64,000 nucleotides of DNA from Gammaproteobacteria bacterium (GTDB lineage Bacteria > Pseudomonadota > Gammaproteobacteria > Steroidobacterales > JABDKV01). Positions within the stretch are counted from its first letter, which is position 1; every line of letters starts with the position of its first letter. Positions 57,154 through 64,000 of the stretch are shown piece by piece. The position numbers were made by a program, and so were the translations under genes. The notes beneath the pieces were generated by a model. The model was not told the origin of the DNA and ran no database searches. It worked only from the letters and a program-made list of their open reading frames with translations. Where the stretch lies: NCBI GenBank assembly GCA_013003425.1, contig JABDJB010000006.1, positions 134,248 through 198,247 on the forward strand, given 5' to 3'.

Positions 57154-57969
57154 CTAGCAGCTGCGACGATATAGCACGAGAGTAGTGTCGTCCGGCTTGC
57201 TTGGAGCGGCCGCTTCCGGCTCGAGCATTCGTTGCTGCGCGGCTTTCATTACACGCTCGGCCGCTTTTTCAATATTTCCGACCCTGACGTACTCGATCAG
57301 TTCATCCGGATGCAGGTTATCCAGCACGCCATCTGTTGCCAGCACCACCGTGTCACGTCGGGCCAGTGCCAGGCTCTGGCCAATCTCGATGCGCATGTCA
57401 CGCGCACCAATTACATTCGATACCAGATGGCGGTCCTCGTGATGCATCGCCTCGCCTTCGTCCATTACGCCGGCTTCGACGGCATAACCAACAGGTGAAT
57501 GAGCAACTGTCTGCAGGCGCAGCCGCCCGCGCTGGCCGACCACCATGACAGCTGAGTCGCCGATATGTATCGGGCGAACGCGATGCCGGTCAATTTCCAC
57601 CAGCGCCAGCGTGGTGGCAGAACCGTTACCACTCGCGCGCACGCTTTCGTTGGCGTGTTCGATAGCGTTGACTATCGCGGCCCGCGATGAAGAACCACGA
57701 TCATTATCTGCGGGAATGCCAGCCAGGGCGTCAACGGTGTCCTGTGACGCGGTATGTGCCAGGCGTGAACCGCCGACGCCGTCGGCAACAGCCAGTATTA
57801 CCGCATGCCGGTCGAGCGGGACGATGGCAGCAGAGTCTTCATTGCTGCCGTCTTTGTCGGGAGCCCGAAACGAACAGAGCACCGCTTCGCCATCCGCAAC
57901 CAGGACATGCTGCAGGTCAGGTTCGACGCTGTCCTTCAGGAGCAGCGGTTTGCTGAGTAACGCCACCAT
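57154..57969 (-). CDS. PP2C-family protein phosphatase
   Basis: 271 residues, soluble. Metal-binding motifs of PPM phosphatases: RAPDKDGSNEDS (about 35-46, first Asp usually in an RxxNED-type motif), VADGVGGSRLAH (about 61-72), HIGDSAVMVV, ATDGVLDNLHPDEL and PDDTTLVL at the end. Expected to remove phosphate from Ser/Thr, most likely from targets of the kinase encoded three bases upstream. Kinase-phosphatase pairing in this order is typical of bacterial Ser/Thr phospho-signalling. Confidence 0.92.
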   Translation of the reverse strand: MVALLSKPLLLKDSVEPDLQHVLVADGEAVLCSFRAPDKDGSNEDSAAIVPLDRHAVILAVADGVGGSRLAHTASQDTVDALAGIPADNDRGSSSRAAIVNAIEHANESVRASGNGSATTLALVEIDRHRVRPIHIGDSAVMVVGQRGRLRLQTVAHSPVGYAVEAGVMDEGEAMHHEDRHLVSNVIGARDMRIEIGQSLALARRDTVVLATDGVLDNLHPDELIEYVRVGNIEKAAERVMKAAQQRMLEPEAAAPSKPDDTTLVLYRRSC

Positions 57970-57972
57970 GCA

Positions 57973-59283
57973 TCAAGCCTCCAGGTGGTCGGCACACCAT
58001 GGGCACCAGCCCCAGAACTCGGTCAGCACATCGTTGCCGCAGCTGCCACACGCCGTGCCGTCCGGCAGCTTCCATCGCTTGCGAACCTTGTTGCGGCACC
58101 ATGGACAATAGCGCATGTGCGGCATCAATTCCCGCCGACTGCAACGAGCGTTGCTGCAGCGCGCTACATAGCGCTTGTCCGAGTATTGTTTCTCCTCTGC
58201 ATCGTCAAATTTTGCACCGTAACACCAGGCGCAATAATGCCAGTCGAGCTTCATCCCGCGATCGCAGCGGGGGCACTGCGCGGGAAACTGTGTCTCACCG
58301 TGAAGAAAACGGCCGTCAGCACCACACCACGGGCAGGCCTGCATCGATTCGGCAACAGGCCCCTCACATTTGCGGCAGCTGAAGCGAGTCTCCAGCTGTT
58401 TGCCGTAGCGACGACGAAACTGCCGCCACCTGATTTCGTGCCAGCTTGGAGAATTTCCGTTTGGCTGTTTGCGCCGCCGGCTCTTGCGTTTCAGCCAGGC
58501 GCGGGTACGCGGCAGAATACGCTCATACTCAGCCAGCATCGTGCCCGCATTGGCGAAGCGACGGGATGGCGTTACGTCGATTGATTTTTTCAGGAAATCT
58601 ATGAATTCCGTCGGCATCCGCTGACGCAGCCGGTCATAGCCCGGGCCCGGCCAGGTGAACGGCCACTCGGGCAGTTTCCCGCTCAACATCCTGTAGGCAA
58701 TCAACCCCAGCGAAAACACATCGGAACGATAGCCGGGCCGGCCCATCGCCTGTTCCGGTGCCACGTAGCCAAGCGTGCCGGATCCGGAAGCCTTGAGGGT
58801 GCGCAATGCGATCTTGGCTATACCGAAGTCGGCCAGTCGCAGCTCGCTGTCCGGGAACAGGATGAAATTCTCGGGTTTTATATCGCAATGAATAACTCGC
58901 AACCCATGAGCAAACGCCACGGCGTCGAGCATCTGCAAAATCAGGTCCAGCGCCTTGTCGGCAGCGAGTCGATAACCGATACGGTCCGCCAGCGTGCCGA
59001 TACCGAGCGGGCTGACAATGACGAAGGTCTTGTCGATGAAACCGGCATCCTTGATGGGGAGAATGTGCGGATGATCGAGCTTTGCCGCAAGCCGGACTTC
59101 CTTGCGAAATTCGTCGGGAAATTTTCCTTCCGTTTGAAAAGTGTGCGGGATCTTGAGCGCGACACGCACGCCCAGTATCGTGTCGTAAGCCGCGTACACT
59201 GCTGCAAAATTGGTGACCGCAAGCCGCTTCTCGATGCGGTACTTGCCCAGTTTTTGTCGCCGCCTCAGCTTGTCGGTTTGCAT
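57973..59283 (-). CDS. Ser/Thr protein kinase with four C-terminal zinc ribbons
   Basis: 436 residues. Hanks-type kinase (14-265): catalytic Lys44 in VALKIP, HCDIKPEN with Asp134 (HRD variant HCD), ADFG with Asp152, and APEQ. The glycine-rich loop is atypical: RLAVTNFAAVY lacks all the usual glycines. After a basic linker (270-310) come four CxxC...CxxC units (RKC..CPWCG; CPRC..CAWC; SNARC..CPWC; CGSC..CPWC), predicted zinc ribbons. No membrane segment. Such zinc-ribbon kinases are known from TerY-P triads with PP2C and vWA proteins, and both occur nearby. The weak Gly-loop may lower activity, but the core residues are intact. Confidence 0.9.
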   Translation of the reverse strand: MQTDKLRRRQKLGKYRIEKRLAVTNFAAVYAAYDTILGVRVALKIPHTFQTEGKFPDEFRKEVRLAAKLDHPHILPIKDAGFIDKTFVIVSPLGIGTLADRIGYRLAADKALDLILQMLDAVAFAHGLRVIHCDIKPENFILFPDSELRLADFGIAKIALRTLKASGSGTLGYVAPEQAMGRPGYRSDVFSLGLIAYRMLSGKLPEWPFTWPGPGYDRLRQRMPTEFIDFLKKSIDVTPSRRFANAGTMLAEYERILPRTRAWLKRKSRRRKQPNGNSPSWHEIRWRQFRRRYGKQLETRFSCRKCEGPVAESMQACPWCGADGRFLHGETQFPAQCPRCDRGMKLDWHYCAWCYGAKFDDAEEKQYSDKRYVARCSNARCSRRELMPHMRYCPWCRNKVRKRWKLPDGTACGSCGNDVLTEFWGWCPWCADHLEA

Positions 59284-59346
59284 GGGCCGAAGTTTACTTT
59301 AAGCCGTCGCTGGCCGCCCGCACCCTGGTATGCGACGATTTGTCCG

Positions 59347-60519
59347 GTGATCCGGATTCTCACTTTCAGTACCCTTTATCCCAACGCCGCCCGGCCTGGC
59401 CACGGGCCGTTTGTCGAGCACCGGCTGCGCCAGCTGGTCGGCAGCGGTGCGGTGAGCGCTTCAGTCATCGCTCCGGTGCCATGGTTTCCCTTCAGGAATA
59501 AGGCGTTCGGCGACTACGCCGACTTTGCCGCCGCGCCGCGGGCCGAAACCCGTCATGGCCTTGAGATCGTGCATCCGCGCTACCCGGTAGTTCCCAAAGT
59601 AGGCATGAACCTGGCGCCGGCCCTGCTGGAGCGGTTCAGCCGAACAGCGGTGGACCGCGAACTGGCCCGCCACCCTGATACCGCTTTGATCGATGCCCAT
59701 TATTTTTACCCCGACGGCGTCGCCGCCGCTGCCCATGGATTGCGCACCGGAAAGCCCGTCGTGATAACCGCGCGCGGCACGGATATCAGCCTGATTCCGC
59801 AGTATCGCCGGCCACGGCAGAAAATCCTGTGGGCGGCACGCCAGGCTGCCGCGATTATTACGGTGTGCGAGGCATTGAAACTGGCACTGGTCGATCTTGG
59901 TGTCCCGGCCGACCGGATTACCGTCCTGCGTAATGGCGTGGACTTCGAAATCTTTCGCCCGGTACCGAAACAACAGGCCCGGGCTCGCACCCTGATGAAC
60001 GGCCGCACACTGCTATCGGTTGGCCACATGATCGAGCGCAAGGGCCATCACCTGGTGATCGAAGCGCTGACCCGGCTCCCGGACACAAACCTGGTGATCG
60101 TGGGTGACGGACCCATGCACCAGGAACTGGTTACGCAGGTTGCGTCTGCGAGGTTGGGCGACAGGGTGCGATTTGCCGGTCGCATCGCCCAGGATCAGCT
60201 GCCCGATTACTACAGCGCTGCTGACGCTCTGTTGTTGGCATCGAGCCGCGAGGGGATGGCCAATGTCCTGCTGGAGTCACTGGCCTGTGGCACGCCGGTT
60301 GTTGCCACGCCGGTATGGGGCACGCCGGAAGTGATTGCCGACCCTGCTGCCGGTGTACTAAGCGCGGACCGCTCGGCTGGCGCGATCGCGGCTGCCGTAC
60401 GCCAGCTGTTCGATAACTATCCCGACAGCGATGCCACTCTCGCCTACGCGAGGCAGTTCAGCTGGGAAGCCACTACCGCCGGGCAAATCGAGTTGTTCCG
60501 CCGCATCAGCGGCCACTAA
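59347..60519 (+). CDS. Glycosyltransferase family 4 (TuaC-like)
   Basis: 390 residues from the GTG at 59347, where the family sequence begins (IRILTFSTLYPNAARPGHGPFVEHRLRQL). The frame is open 153 codons further upstream, but that part is antisense to the kinase gene. GT-B fold: VVITARGTDISLIP, VLRNGVDFEIFRP, LLSVGHMIERKGHHLVIEAL, VIVGDGPMHQEL, and EGMANVLLESLACGTPVVATP with the EX7E-type glutamates. No ribosome-binding site stands out. It sits between the kinase unit (divergent) and the vWA operon (convergent, four-base overlap), with no other EPS gene nearby. Acceptor unknown. Confidence 0.88.
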   Translation: MIRILTFSTLYPNAARPGHGPFVEHRLRQLVGSGAVSASVIAPVPWFPFRNKAFGDYADFAAAPRAETRHGLEIVHPRYPVVPKVGMNLAPALLERFSRTAVDRELARHPDTALIDAHYFYPDGVAAAAHGLRTGKPVVITARGTDISLIPQYRRPRQKILWAARQAAAIITVCEALKLALVDLGVPADRITVLRNGVDFEIFRPVPKQQARARTLMNGRTLLSVGHMIERKGHHLVIEALTRLPDTNLVIVGDGPMHQELVTQVASARLGDRVRFAGRIAQDQLPDYYSAADALLLASSREGMANVLLESLACGTPVVATPVWGTPEVIADPAAGVLSADRSAGAIAAAVRQLFDNYPDSDATLAYARQFSWEATTAGQIELFRRISGH

Positions 60520-61508
60520 CGCGCCGAATTCAATGCGATAAACGTGCCGCCGTGCTGTTCACACAGCAGGCGCATGAGGGTAGCAAAGCGTTCGCCGGTA
60601 ATATGCAGGCGCGGATCCTGCTCCAGCATCACCGGAAATCCCACGGCATGAATGCGCACCAGGCGGTTGCCGTCCGTGCCGAATCGATTGATCTTGTTGA
60701 CCGCATCGAGCACCGGCTGTATCCCGCCGCCGGTAAACTCGTCACCAAATACGTACAGGCTGATACGCTTGTCAGACGAATAGAAGGTCGAAATGGCACG
60801 GGTGATTCCCTCAACCGGGCTGGAATTACTGAACGCCCGCCAGCCGCGCAGCTTGTCGACGATTGCCTTGCGGCGAGCACGTGAATCAGGAATCCAGCGA
60901 CCACGATAGCGCGGAAACATGTACTGACCCATGTCGTTCATGACCTGGATACCTTTGACGTCCGGGTAAACTGCCAGGGTTTCGCTAACCTTGCGCTGCA
61001 CCGCCGGCCACGCATACTGAAACATGCTCGAAGAAGTATCGATAATAAAAATGATGTATTCGCTGTCGGCAGGTATACCACCAATGACGCTGCTGGGCTC
61101 GGCGTCGAAAATACGTAACTCGTCAACTTCCTGCGTGAGTTCGGCACGCGCAAACTCCAGCCGGCGCTCCAGTATCTCGACAACGGTTGAATCTTTTTCC
61201 GACATTTCGAATTCGCCACGCAGTGAACTTAGCCGGTCGCTGAGCCGCGCCAGCTCGCCACGCCGGCGGGACACCTGGTCGCGACGGTCCTCGGCCTCGG
61301 TATCCACGGTTACGATGAGACTGCGTAATTCATCGAGGCGGTCCTCGAGCTCCTGCGCTTCTGTACGCAGCGCCTCGGTCGTTTGTTCCAGCACCATCGG
61401 CTGGGTCACCTTGGTAATTACCAGCAGCAGCAGAATTGCCCCGAAACCGCAGGCAATCGCGTCCAGAAACGACAGGCTGAATGGCTGTATTTCGCGTCGA
61501 TGCGGCAT
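60516..61508 (-). CDS. Membrane-anchored vWA protein 1
   Basis: 330 residues. One N-terminal membrane helix (FLDAIACGFGAILLLLVITKV, about 14-34) with an ExbD/MotB-like lead-in (FSLSFLD), a periplasmic coiled coil (40-130), and a von Willebrand A domain (145-330) with an intact MIDAS start DTSSSM. The last segment FATLMRLLCEQHGGTFIALNSAR is typical of vWA ends. It probably assembles with vWA protein 2, which has the same architecture and ends four bases upstream. Role unknown; likely a periplasmic protein-binding module in the FHA/kinase cluster. Confidence 0.88.
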   Translation of the reverse strand: MPHRREIQPFSLSFLDAIACGFGAILLLLVITKVTQPMVLEQTTEALRTEAQELEDRLDELRSLIVTVDTEAEDRRDQVSRRRGELARLSDRLSSLRGEFEMSEKDSTVVEILERRLEFARAELTQEVDELRIFDAEPSSVIGGIPADSEYIIFIIDTSSSMFQYAWPAVQRKVSETLAVYPDVKGIQVMNDMGQYMFPRYRGRWIPDSRARRKAIVDKLRGWRAFSNSSPVEGITRAISTFYSSDKRISLYVFGDEFTGGGIQPVLDAVNKINRFGTDGNRLVRIHAVGFPVMLEQDPRLHITGERFATLMRLLCEQHGGTFIALNSAR

Positions 61509-61512
61509 GAGC

Positions 61513-62610
61513 TTAAGGCCAGTCGCGCGACGGGCTCATAAATGAGCCGTTGGTAACCATCGCCAGACGCCAGAACTGGCTGGACGCTGCCGGGTCCCCC
61601 TCAATGGGAAACATGATGGTGTTGACGGGTATGCCGACTGGTAACACCTCCAGTGAACGCTGATAGGTCCGGATGCGATTGCGCGGCGAGATAGTGCGAC
61701 GCTTTGGCGGCCCGTCACCGACGGTCGGCAGTCCGTCGGTTATCAGCACGATATTGTCCGGCAGCGGGTCCATGTCGCTAACCGCGCTAAAGGCGGCGTG
61801 CAGGCTGGTTCCCTTGCGAGGCTCGAGCTTGCGCAGCGCCGCTGCAGCTTTTCCCTTCTGCGCCTGGTCGGTTGCCGCAAACCATTCGCCCTCCGTTCCT
61901 TCCAGCAGCGGCTGTGCGGTTTCATTGAATACGTAAACCTGGAACCGGGTGGTTTCCGGCATACGCCGCATGATCCACTCGACTGTTTGCAGCGAGCGCT
62001 GCCATTTTTGCGCCTCCAGCTTCCGTTCCAGCGGCATATTCCTGCGCCGGATGATGTTAACCAGGGTCGTGTCGAGCATACTGGCCGAGGCATCAAGCAT
62101 GACCAGCAGGCGCTCACCACCGAGCTTCAGCCCGGTCAGGTACTGCCGGTCACCCATACCGAGGAAATCGCGCGCATTGGACTCGGTCAGCCGCTGCTCC
62201 TCGGCAGCGCCCTCCAGCCGCTTGTGCTGCTCTTCCAGCGCCTTGAGTTCTGCCATCAACGCCGCGATGTGCTCGCGTTGCGACAGCGTGGTTTCGTCCT
62301 GGTTGGCCAGTTCATCGCGCGCACGCGCAATTTCCTCGGTAACCTGGCGGGCGCGCGCCTCCAGCTGGATGATTTCGGCTGCCGCAATCTCTATTGCTTC
62401 GCGTGAACGGTGCACATAGGTTTCGCTTTCGCTGATTTCTTCCTTGAGCGCGGTTATCTCTACGAGGAGCTCGGCATTGATTTCGTCCGAGCGCTGTAAA
62501 GTGGAGTGATGTATGAGCATAAACACAAGCACGGTGGCGCCGAAGCCGCACGACATGATGTCGAGAAACGACAGGCTGAAAACCGTGAATCGTCGCTGTT
62601 TACGCGCCAT
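61513..62610 (-). CDS. Membrane-anchored vWA protein 2
   Basis: 365 residues. Same layout as its neighbour: FSLSFLDIMSCGFGATVLVFMLI helix (about 11-33), coiled coil (40-150), then a vWA domain with MIDAS DASASM (about 176-181) and further MIDAS residues in RKGTSLHAAF and LITDGLP. The shared FSLSFLD..CGFGA opening suggests duplication and co-assembly in the membrane. Overlaps the FHA gene upstream by 11 bases. Confidence 0.88.
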   Translation of the reverse strand: MARKQRRFTVFSLSFLDIMSCGFGATVLVFMLIHHSTLQRSDEINAELLVEITALKEEISESETYVHRSREAIEIAAAEIIQLEARARQVTEEIARARDELANQDETTLSQREHIAALMAELKALEEQHKRLEGAAEEQRLTESNARDFLGMGDRQYLTGLKLGGERLLVMLDASASMLDTTLVNIIRRRNMPLERKLEAQKWQRSLQTVEWIMRRMPETTRFQVYVFNETAQPLLEGTEGEWFAATDQAQKGKAAAALRKLEPRKGTSLHAAFSAVSDMDPLPDNIVLITDGLPTVGDGPPKRRTISPRNRIRTYQRSLEVLPVGIPVNTIMFPIEGDPAASSQFWRLAMVTNGSFMSPSRDWP

Positions 62611-63955
62611 CGACTGTAATCAGCTGAAGCAGTTGTTCCGTGCCGCCCAGACGCAGCACATCGCCATAGTTGACGCTGACACTGCCATCGATCCGGCGAT
62701 CGTTTACGAAGGTACCGTGTTCACTGCAATCCTCAACCACGACGACGCCGTCGTTACGCGTTATCCTGCAATGCTCACGCGAAACACCTGCCAGGTCGCC
62801 GGTCAGCACGACATTCCTGCCGCTGTCCGTCGGCTGCGAACCCAACGTGAGGGTGTCGCTGCCGATCGGGATACCACGGCCACGATAAAGCACGTGAGTC
62901 GGAAGGACCTCTGCCGGCCGCTCTTCCTGTGGCAGTGGCAGGCTGACTGCATCTCGATGCCAACTGACGCTGGTAACAAATGCCACTGACTCGCCGCTGC
63001 CGCAAATCTCGTCGGCGCGCCGCAGCGCACCTGCGGCCGCCTGCGCCGTAGCCTGTTCGACAACGTCGCAGCCGGACAGGTTATCGCCGAGCGCGGCGAC
63101 CAGGCCGGGAAAAAACTGGATACGGTCGCTCAGCAGCAAGGTCAGCGGCTCACCGGGGCGACCGGTTGCGGCAATGTGCCGGCTCAGGCGGCTGAACTGC
63201 TCTTGCGCCGCTGCTGCCAGCGACTGCGCCGAAACGGTAACCGTATGATCGCGCCCGCCGCTGGGCAGTGACAACTCTGCCTGGCCGGCACGGGAAACTG
63301 CAGCAAGCCAGCCGGGCAGCTGGTCGTACAGGCGCTGCTCCGACTCGGCTGAATGCATCGGGTCATAGCGGGTGTTGCGTACAAACGTATCGCCAACCGC
63401 GTTGGCCCAGGCCGCATAAAAATCCGCCAGCCCGCAACCCTCCTGCTCGCTGACCTGACCGCGGCTGAGCTGGCGGCCCTGGTTCAGTTCCGTGAGCACC
63501 ACCCGGCGTGCCAGCAACTCCAGGTGAAACAGCTGGCGGCCCGGCACCGGCTGCTCGGCGGCCACCACTGCCTGGTCGACCATCGCGCTAACCGGCACGG
63601 CGCACTCCCGCGCAATTCCGAGCAACAGGCTCAGTTGCTCGCGCCCGAAACTGCCCGGGACAACCAGAATCACCGGTTCCTCGCGACCCGTCTCTGACCA
63701 CACCTGGCGCAGGTGGTGGTAAGCGAGGTCAGCATAGGTTGCAGCACCGCGTACCGAGCCGGGCAGGCTGTCGAGACTCAGCTGCCCCCAGAAATCGTCA
63801 AACACACGTCCCGGATGCAGTCGCGCCTGCGCGAGCGCCGCGGCGCCAACGCTGACATCGCCGTCGACCAGTGCATAACCGGGGCTGTCCAGCAGCACAC
63901 CTTCGGCACCGCGTACGCGCAGACCACTATCTCCGATTTCAATCGCGATGGTCAT
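62600..63955 (-). CDS. Actin/Hsp70-like domain fused to FHA domain
   Basis: 451 residues, soluble. Residues 1-345 look like an actin/Hsp70-type ATPase: phosphate-loop-like IEIGDSGLRV at the start, GYALVDGDVSVGAAALAQARLHP, EPVILVVPGSFGREQLSLLLGIARE, VDQAVVAA and GLVAALGD. Residues 360-445 are an FHA domain with the phosphothreonine-binding GVSREHCRI (Ser about 392, His 395) and HGTFVND. FHA domains dock onto phospho-Thr, so it is a probable substrate or reader of the nearby kinase. Upstream of both vWA genes in one operon; the preceding gene's stop TAG directly abuts its ATG. Confidence 0.85.
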   Translation of the reverse strand: MTIAIEIGDSGLRVRGAEGVLLDSPGYALVDGDVSVGAAALAQARLHPGRVFDDFWGQLSLDSLPGSVRGAATYADLAYHHLRQVWSETGREEPVILVVPGSFGREQLSLLLGIARECAVPVSAMVDQAVVAAEQPVPGRQLFHLELLARRVVLTELNQGRQLSRGQVSEQEGCGLADFYAAWANAVGDTFVRNTRYDPMHSAESEQRLYDQLPGWLAAVSRAGQAELSLPSGGRDHTVTVSAQSLAAAAQEQFSRLSRHIAATGRPGEPLTLLLSDRIQFFPGLVAALGDNLSGCDVVEQATAQAAAGALRRADEICGSGESVAFVTSVSWHRDAVSLPLPQEERPAEVLPTHVLYRGRGIPIGSDTLTLGSQPTDSGRNVVLTGDLAGVSREHCRITRNDGVVVVEDCSEHGTFVNDRRIDGSVSVNYGDVLRLGGTEQLLQLITVDGA

Positions 63956-64000
63956 CTAACGTACCTGCAGATGCTGCACGAGACGTTCGTCGCAATAATT
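63956..64000 (-). CDS. 3' end of a gene continuing beyond the window
   Basis: The minus-strand frame from 64000 is open for 14 codons (ending DERLVQHLQVR) and stops at TAG 63956-63958, immediately before the FHA-protein ATG. The tight junction suggests an upstream gene of the same operon. Too short to identify. Confidence 0.5.
   Translation of the reverse strand, partial: NYCDERLVQHLQVR

Follow-up and report, generated by a model that had tools for sequence, protein, structure and literature searches.

A conserved operon with paired membrane vWA proteins that looks like a trans-envelope motor in Gammaproteobacteria

The question raised by this locus is what a serine/threonine kinase, a PP2C phosphatase, two membrane proteins with von Willebrand factor A (vWA) domains and an actin/Hsp70-like protein fused to an FHA domain have in common, all five being encoded on the minus strand at one end of a 64,000-nt stretch of the genome of a Gammaproteobacteria bacterium (assembly GCA_013003425.1, contig JABDJB010000006.1; G000:C6:134248-198247 in our numbering), which will be called the window hereafter. 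An initial annotation had taken the five genes to form an undescribed phospho-signalling system, in which the FHA protein would read a kinase signal and pass it to the vWA pair. The five architectures are real, as judged by Pfam matches, alignment and structure search, and they do point to a coherent membrane system. However, a motor is a better reading of that system than a signal receiver. That is, the window looks as if it ends inside an operon for a motor of the 5:2 type (the MotA/TolQ/ExbB class), with the 3′ half of the operon inside the window and the remainder past its end.

The operon past the end of the window

The FHA fusion gene (AFHA, 62600..63955, minus strand) is abutted, with 0 bases between, by a gene lying directly upstream and just past base 64000. 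This gene, MOT (63956..64774, minus strand, of which 63956..64000 is the 3′ end inside the window; L002:8204-9022, the window-scale coordinate being the L002 position + 55752), encodes a protein of 272 residues of the MotA/TolQ/ExbB type (Pfam MotA_ExbB PF01618, 4.7e-15, above the gathering cut-off). The ExbB/MotA-like partner that had been guessed to lie just outside the window thus exists. Downstream of AFHA, on the same strand, are the genes of the two vWA proteins, VWA (61513..62610) and VWB (60516..61508). Upstream of MOT, again on its strand, come FGE (793 residues; L002:9246-11627), TPR (a transmembrane tetratricopeptide repeat protein of 485 residues; L002:11624-13081) and the lipoprotein genes LIP1 (L002:13169-14374) and LIP2 (L002:14371-15993, or 70123-71745 on the window scale). 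Genes overlap or abut along the operon, the spacings from LIP2 to VWB being −4, 87, −4, 223, 0, −11 and 4 bases.

MOT homologues were found in 34 of 40 relatives (E <= 0.001), and the order LIP2-LIP1-TPR-FGE-MOT-AFHA-VWA-VWB was nearly always held in 21 genomes of the window's own order, which represent about 16 families. A scan of named genomes with the VWA alignment gave 551 relatives; counts for named loci refer to the best 80 of these and take in only the loci long enough to judge each gene. The same order was nearly invariant in these 80 loci, which come from Pseudomonadota, Thermodesulfobacteriota, Myxococcota and Acidobacteriota, with representatives in the Gammaproteobacteria (Halieaceae, Colwelliaceae and others), Desulfobacterales, Myxococcales and Vicinamibacteria; the operon is the same in Thalassomonas and Colwellia (L111 and L127). 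Core genes were present in essentially every assessable named locus: VWB in 75/75, MOT in 71/71, AFHA in 73/74, FGE in 64/64, TPR in 56/56, LIP1 in 54/54 and LIP2 in 48/49, and VWA adjoins MOT/AFHA and VWB in essentially all of them. The flanking genes were less constant, two further lipoprotein genes, LP3 and LP4, being found in 50/68 and 37/63 loci, and the kinase and the PP2C phosphatase in 3/50 each. In another proteobacterial class, one family (f48; L137, L138, L139 and L141) has a divergent operon of seven genes, LIP2-LIP1-TPR-FGE-MOT-VWA-VWB, without AFHA. The minimal core thus consists of seven genes, with AFHA as an accessory.

A putative motor core of MOT and a vWA pair

VWA (Pfam VWA_2, 1.6e-6) and VWB are alike in architecture, as had been noticed from the window: each has a single N-terminal transmembrane helix with the motif FLDxxxCGFGA, followed by a coiled coil and a predicted periplasmic vWA or, for VWB, vWA-like domain. 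Pfam detects the vWA domain in VWA only, the call for VWB resting on the alignment of its DxSxS...D residues. The metal ion-dependent adhesion site (MIDAS) is intact in VWA (D, S, S, T, D); in VWB the DxSxS motif and the Asp are kept, with Ser in place of Thr. An Asp in the transmembrane helix is invariant in the alignment (D17 in VWA, D16 in VWB). MotB, ExbD and TolR have a transmembrane Asp at the equivalent position, and the ExbD/MotB-like opening ascribed earlier to the two proteins is confirmed. Family scans detected no TolR-, ExbD- or MotB-type gene among the proteins of the operon, and because no such protein is encoded nearby the vWA proteins are likely to be the B subunits of the motor, VWA being the putative rotor subunit A and VWB the putative rotor subunit B.

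In a tree of 51 VWA and VWB sequences there is one split into two sister clades, with 100/100 support, and the two proteins never occur unpaired in assessable loci. VWA and VWB are therefore, as far as alignment and tree can tell, ancient sister families that are always paired, and the single fully supported split together with the failure to find them apart suggests an obligate heterodimer.

On the side of MOT, Thr196 and Thr229 are invariant in 22 sequences. The sole match of the MOT profile to sequences of the PDB was TolQ, and a weak one (E 0.039); in the gapless alignment of the profile to the solved TolQ, given by this same weak match (E 0.039), T196 and T229 fall on the pore threonines of its GTV and LIAT motifs.

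A motor of this kind has been predicted before. On the basis of Idiomarina homologues, a TPH-vWA motor with a TolQ-like gene was put forward in 2025, its function being stated as unknown; the heterologous vWA pair was predicted to rotate inside the pentamer, and an AlphaFold 3 prediction of such a pair was published (PMC12204202; Mol Biol Evol 2025, msaf138). Compared by description, the likeness is close: membrane vWA proteins that have a transmembrane Asp form a heterologous pair encoded beside a TolQ-like gene, and there is no TolR or ExbD. The two differ in that only vWA and tolQ genes are given for the TPH-vWA motors (PMC12204202, section 8), with no FGE/PEGA protein, TPR protein or TPR-kinase, ring-fold lipoprotein, Hsp70/FHA protein or fixed operon order. 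The motor class is thus known and its paired-vWA version was predicted in 2025, so that the claim of an undescribed system does not hold for the motor core; of the operon as a whole we found no description.

Since ZorA models also match MOT, if marginally (E 2.9e-4, 18 bits), and since kinase/PP2C modules can be defensive, one may ask whether this is an anti-phage defence motor of the Zorya kind. Nothing resembling ZorB, ZorC, ZorD or ZorE was matched in the operon, on which ground identity with Zorya was rejected. Moreover, the gene order is fixed across an order and beyond, many outer membrane lipoproteins are encoded, and a search among plasmid records for a plasmid-borne version of the operon found none. 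A Zorya-like defence role is therefore extremely improbable.

Inner membrane, periplasmic and outer membrane components

The FGE protein is made up of an N-terminal domain, a transmembrane helix, five PEGA repeats and an FGE-type domain; its N-terminal region may be FHA-like, judging by eye. In the aligned homologues the FGE domain has no cysteines at the catalytic positions. Among NCBIfam models it is matched best by GldK/PorK (E 1.9e-28 for the window genome, 2.1e-42 for L099), with scores of 99.9 and 145.9 bits that lie well below the GldK equivalog cut-off of 350. The cysteine-free FGE fold of PorK acts as the docking hub of a motor-driven ring (PMC12421860). The operon thus resembles the PorLM-PorKN/GldLM-GldKN module of the type IX secretion system, in which a motor driven by the proton-motive force is likewise co-encoded with an FGE-fold protein devoid of catalytic cysteines (PMC12421860), the difference being that PEGA repeats and a transmembrane helix are found in the FGE protein here, which is not an outer membrane lipoprotein. 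No family match to GldL or GldM was obtained for MOT, VWA or VWB at E 0.01.

Lipoboxes are visible by sequence inspection in LIP1, LIP2, LP3 and LP4. A domain of LIP1 (residues ~42-185; AlphaFold 2 pLDDT 84.4) matches, in a second-look structural aligner, FlgT (Z 10.4), PelC (9.7), CsgG (9.2) and the N-terminal domain of TolB; that is, the fold matches are outer membrane lipoproteins and rings. LIP2 has a PPSQQ tandem repeat behind its lipobox and then a low-complexity body rich in Ser and Ala, and gives the weakest between-genome matches among the core proteins. LP3 and LP4 lie beyond LIP2 on the opposite strand and are followed by a gene for a TPR protein with a TonB_C domain (TPRTON).

The TolB-like match of LIP1 and the TonB_C domain of this upstream TPR-TonB protein could also speak for a Tol-Pal-like envelope stabiliser, with the same motor and with outer membrane tethering or division as output in place of a surface or secretion structure. 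The Tol-Pal system is, however, defined by TolA, TolB and Pal, none of which is encoded here: family searches of the operon gave no match to TolR, TolA or Pal, and its TolQ equivalog score is 29.6 bits against a cut-off of 221. Occurrence is patchy, too, the operon having been found in 20 of 274 genomes in a sample of the class and in 14 of 299 in a sample of the phylum, unlike what is expected of a housekeeping envelope system. A Tol-Pal-like role is hence rather unlikely.

Among described machineries, the Agl-Glt gliding apparatus of Myxococcus is similar in combining a TolQR-like motor with a membrane protein bearing an FHA domain (GltG), TPR proteins and outer membrane proteins (PMC3169522). 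It differs from the present operon, where the FHA domain is on a soluble Hsp70-like protein and the rotor has vWA domains, and no Glt homologues were identified by family searches. Identity with a type VI secretion system was rejected on family searches, so that the view that the locus is not of that type holds.

AFHA, the kinases and the phosphatase

Residues 1-325 of AFHA have the fold of an Hsp70 nucleotide-binding domain (Foldseek matches to Ssz1/DnaK; Z 29.8 over 319 residues; AlphaFold 2 pLDDT 90.5), and an FHA domain follows at ~345-445 (Pfam FHA, 2e-13). The fold of this first part is common to Ssz1 and DnaK, which differ from AFHA in that the latter has no substrate-binding domain, an FHA domain being found instead, and in that its phosphate loops do not show the Gly/Thr pattern. 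Specifically, the phosphate-1 and phosphate-2 loops are degenerate, with no Gly-Thr/Gly-Gly pattern, and the phosphate-1 Asp is missing in 4 of 19 sequences. Because the phosphate loops are not conserved, ATPase activity is doubtful. AFHA is, on its sequence and predicted structure, an Hsp70-type pseudo-ATPase fused to an FHA domain; of the actin/Hsp70-like ATPase first described, the fold and the FHA fusion stand, and the ATPase function is in doubt. The FHA domain is itself unusual. The arginine of the FHA G-R motif contacts phosphothreonine, and it is absent in 17 of the 18 aligned members having that position. FHA is present in most AFHA proteins, and the whole domain is missing or degenerate in several homologues.

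The stand-alone kinase, KIN (57973..59283, minus strand), is a cytosolic Ser/Thr kinase (Pkinase, 1.5e-30; catalytic residues intact) with eight CxxC-type knuckles, i.e. four C-terminal zinc ribbons, and the PP2C phosphatase with which it is paired (57154..57969, minus strand; PP2C_2, 3.7e-13) is 3 bases away, as originally described. A glycosyltransferase gene that the initial annotation had not listed and that is outside the system (~59347..60519, plus strand; Glycos_transf_1, 6.6e-36; with a start codon) lies between VWB and KIN, convergent with the former and divergent from the latter, and is not conserved at that site outside the window's family. Since this plus-strand gene separates them from VWB, KIN and PP2C form a separate transcription unit.

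On the first reading of the locus, KIN and PP2C would switch AFHA and hence the vWA pair. In keeping with it, no more than about 10 kb separates the KIN/PP2C genes from the core in three families (f1, f4 and f7), on different sides of it, which exceeds random placement in a 3-Mb genome; this proximity makes some functional link possible there. However, the three named loci with adjacent KIN/PP2C all belong to the window's own family. A whole-genome search found the stand-alone kinase in 22 of the 40 relatives. By hand count in 39 genomes, after exclusion of one that is 70% complete (G001), core and kinase occurred together in 18, the core only in 15, the kinase only in 3 and neither in 3, i.e. 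their presence is not associated. In several genomes (L142, L144 and L147) PP2C is beside the kinase with the core not nearby, and a constant alternative neighbour of the pair was sought in the relatives and not found. Thus the supposed co-occurrence of the five architectures fails, and KIN and PP2C were ruled out as core members by synteny and co-occurrence; they are local neighbours of it. The chain from kinase to FHA reader to vWA protein is weak as well, because the G-R arginine is absent in nearly all AFHA proteins and FHA is missing or degenerate in several. Taken together, the five-gene signalling system is very unlikely.

The KIN/PP2C unit does recall the TerY-P triad, which also combines PP2C with a kinase bearing one or more C-terminal zinc ribbons (PMC11090510). 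In contrast to the triad, the vWA proteins here are membrane-bound and belong to a separate motor operon, with no co-occurrence with the kinase and PP2C. There is no TerY-like vWA gene in the KIN/PP2C unit, and TerY-P identity was rejected, in agreement with the first assessment of the locus. In one relative (L143:13301-14671) an FHA-domain protein is encoded about 4 kb from the kinase, the motor operon being on another contig.

A different kinase is part of the operon itself in many relatives. The TPR protein has an N-terminal Ser/Thr kinase domain in 30 of 84 full-length homologues, a count based on length (>= 660 residues, with Pkinase matches up to 4e-46 in those scanned), giving a receptor-like kinase-transmembrane-TPR arrangement (e.g. 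L035:4749-6854, L041:4173-6611, L044:4629-7004 and L095:2030-4450, among others). This domain is intact in many cases and degenerate, i.e. a pseudokinase, in several, including the window's close relatives L035 and L036; in L050 the kinase is a separate ORF just upstream. The 485-residue TPR of the window is without it, its lineage having lost the fused kinase domain. We therefore consider phospho-control to be an old, optional part of the system, exerted by a kinase other than KIN. Inspection by eye gave no clear anti-correlation of the fused kinase with KIN, about half of the KIN-positive families keeping an intact fused kinase.

These observations bear on whether the system might be a sensor instead of an actuator. 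MOT and the vWA proteins would then be an ion-conducting or tension-sensing gate, and the periplasmic parts would read envelope load, relayed to the cytosol via AFHA by the TPR-fused kinase in relatives or by KIN in the window. The fusion of a kinase, in many cases catalytically intact by sequence, to a periplasmic TPR in so many homologues would fit, as would the retention of FHA in most AFHA proteins. Against this, most lineages, that of the window among them, have a degenerate kinase domain or none, and f48 and others lack AFHA, whereas MOT, VWA and VWB always stay; furthermore, the invariant Asp/Thr pore fits energy use. We regard a sensor as quite unlikely.

A model for the motor

The reading that we prefer, and consider probable, is that a MOT ring and the VWA/VWB helix pair turn an ion gradient, presumably the proton-motive force, into movement of the vWA heads, that the heads work on the FGE/PEGA hub, TPR and an assembly of outer membrane lipoproteins, and that AFHA and, in those genomes that have it, the TPR kinase tune the process. 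MOT would form a ring in the inner membrane whose pore holds an obligate heterodimer, namely a single VWA helix and a single VWB helix, each contributing an ion-binding Asp. As ions pass the threonines lining the pore, the pair would turn or rock, and the coiled coils (~100 residues) would transmit this motion to the periplasm, to the MIDAS vWA heads, which differ between the two proteins. These heads may then act on the PEGA/inactive-FGE docking protein of the inner membrane, on the membrane TPR protein and on outer membrane lipoproteins, including the ring-fold LIP1. Assembly or activity would be gated from the cytosol by AFHA, and the receptor-like kinase domain found on TPR in many relatives might add phospho-control; the window lineage has lost this domain and has the unrelated KIN/PP2C nearby. 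Most likely, the output consists of mechanical work on an outer membrane or surface structure.

Several points weigh against this model. The complex, its stoichiometry, the ion, the rotation and the output are all inferred, and no gene of the locus points to the cargo or the output. The FGE protein appears to be anchored in the inner membrane, whereas PorK is anchored in the outer membrane. The evidence for a ring-lipoprotein fold of LIP1 is moderate, because Foldseek alone is not significant: its search gave no match at E <= 0.001, the best being E 0.019, and the Z-scores of ~10 extend over ~110-150 residues. Finally, AFHA is absent in some lineages, f48 among others, hence its role is not essential.

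There is about an even chance that the operon represents an undescribed class of trans-envelope machine that powers secretion or a surface process in Gammaproteobacteria and other phyla, i.e. a motor driven by the proton-motive force whose rotor is an obligate vWA heterodimer, with a repurposed-FGE/PEGA docking protein, an outer membrane lipoprotein ring, a receptor-like TPR kinase of its own and an Hsp70-derived pseudo-ATPase/FHA regulator. No description of the fixed operon of 7-11 genes, the FGE/PEGA hub, the ring-fold lipoprotein, the fused receptor kinase or the Hsp70-derived FHA protein was found in PMC12204202 or in our searches of open-access papers. A known task can be assigned to only a few 5:2 motors, and earlier predictions of paired vWA rotors gave neither a function nor the wider gene context; the present analysis adds an operon of fixed order with 7 to 11 members, in which folds can be named for every layer of the envelope. 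It also pinpoints residues that can be mutated (Asp16/Asp17, Thr196/Thr229 and the MIDAS sites) and hosts for this that are in culture and non-pathogenic (Halieaceae and Thalassomonas). An obligate heterodimeric rotor, if true, would bear on how 5:2 motors break symmetry.

Variant copies and phylogenetic placement

In the VWA/VWB tree, sequences from Vicinamibacteria and Desulfobacterales are placed among proteobacterial ones, which suggests horizontal transfer of the operon. One record titled as a Klebsiella pneumoniae metagenome-assembled genome (L074) contains an operon typical of marine Gammaproteobacteria, and its label is probably wrong. One genome has, besides the main copy, a second, divergent copy of the operon (L055; G025:C9:26500-46400) without AFHA, in which MOT is 38% identical. 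In a member of the Myxococcales (L071:12124-18271), the FGE-TPR-LIP1-LIP2 half lies downstream of MOT-AFHA-VWA-VWB and on the opposite strand, so that the two halves of the operon can be separate transcription units.

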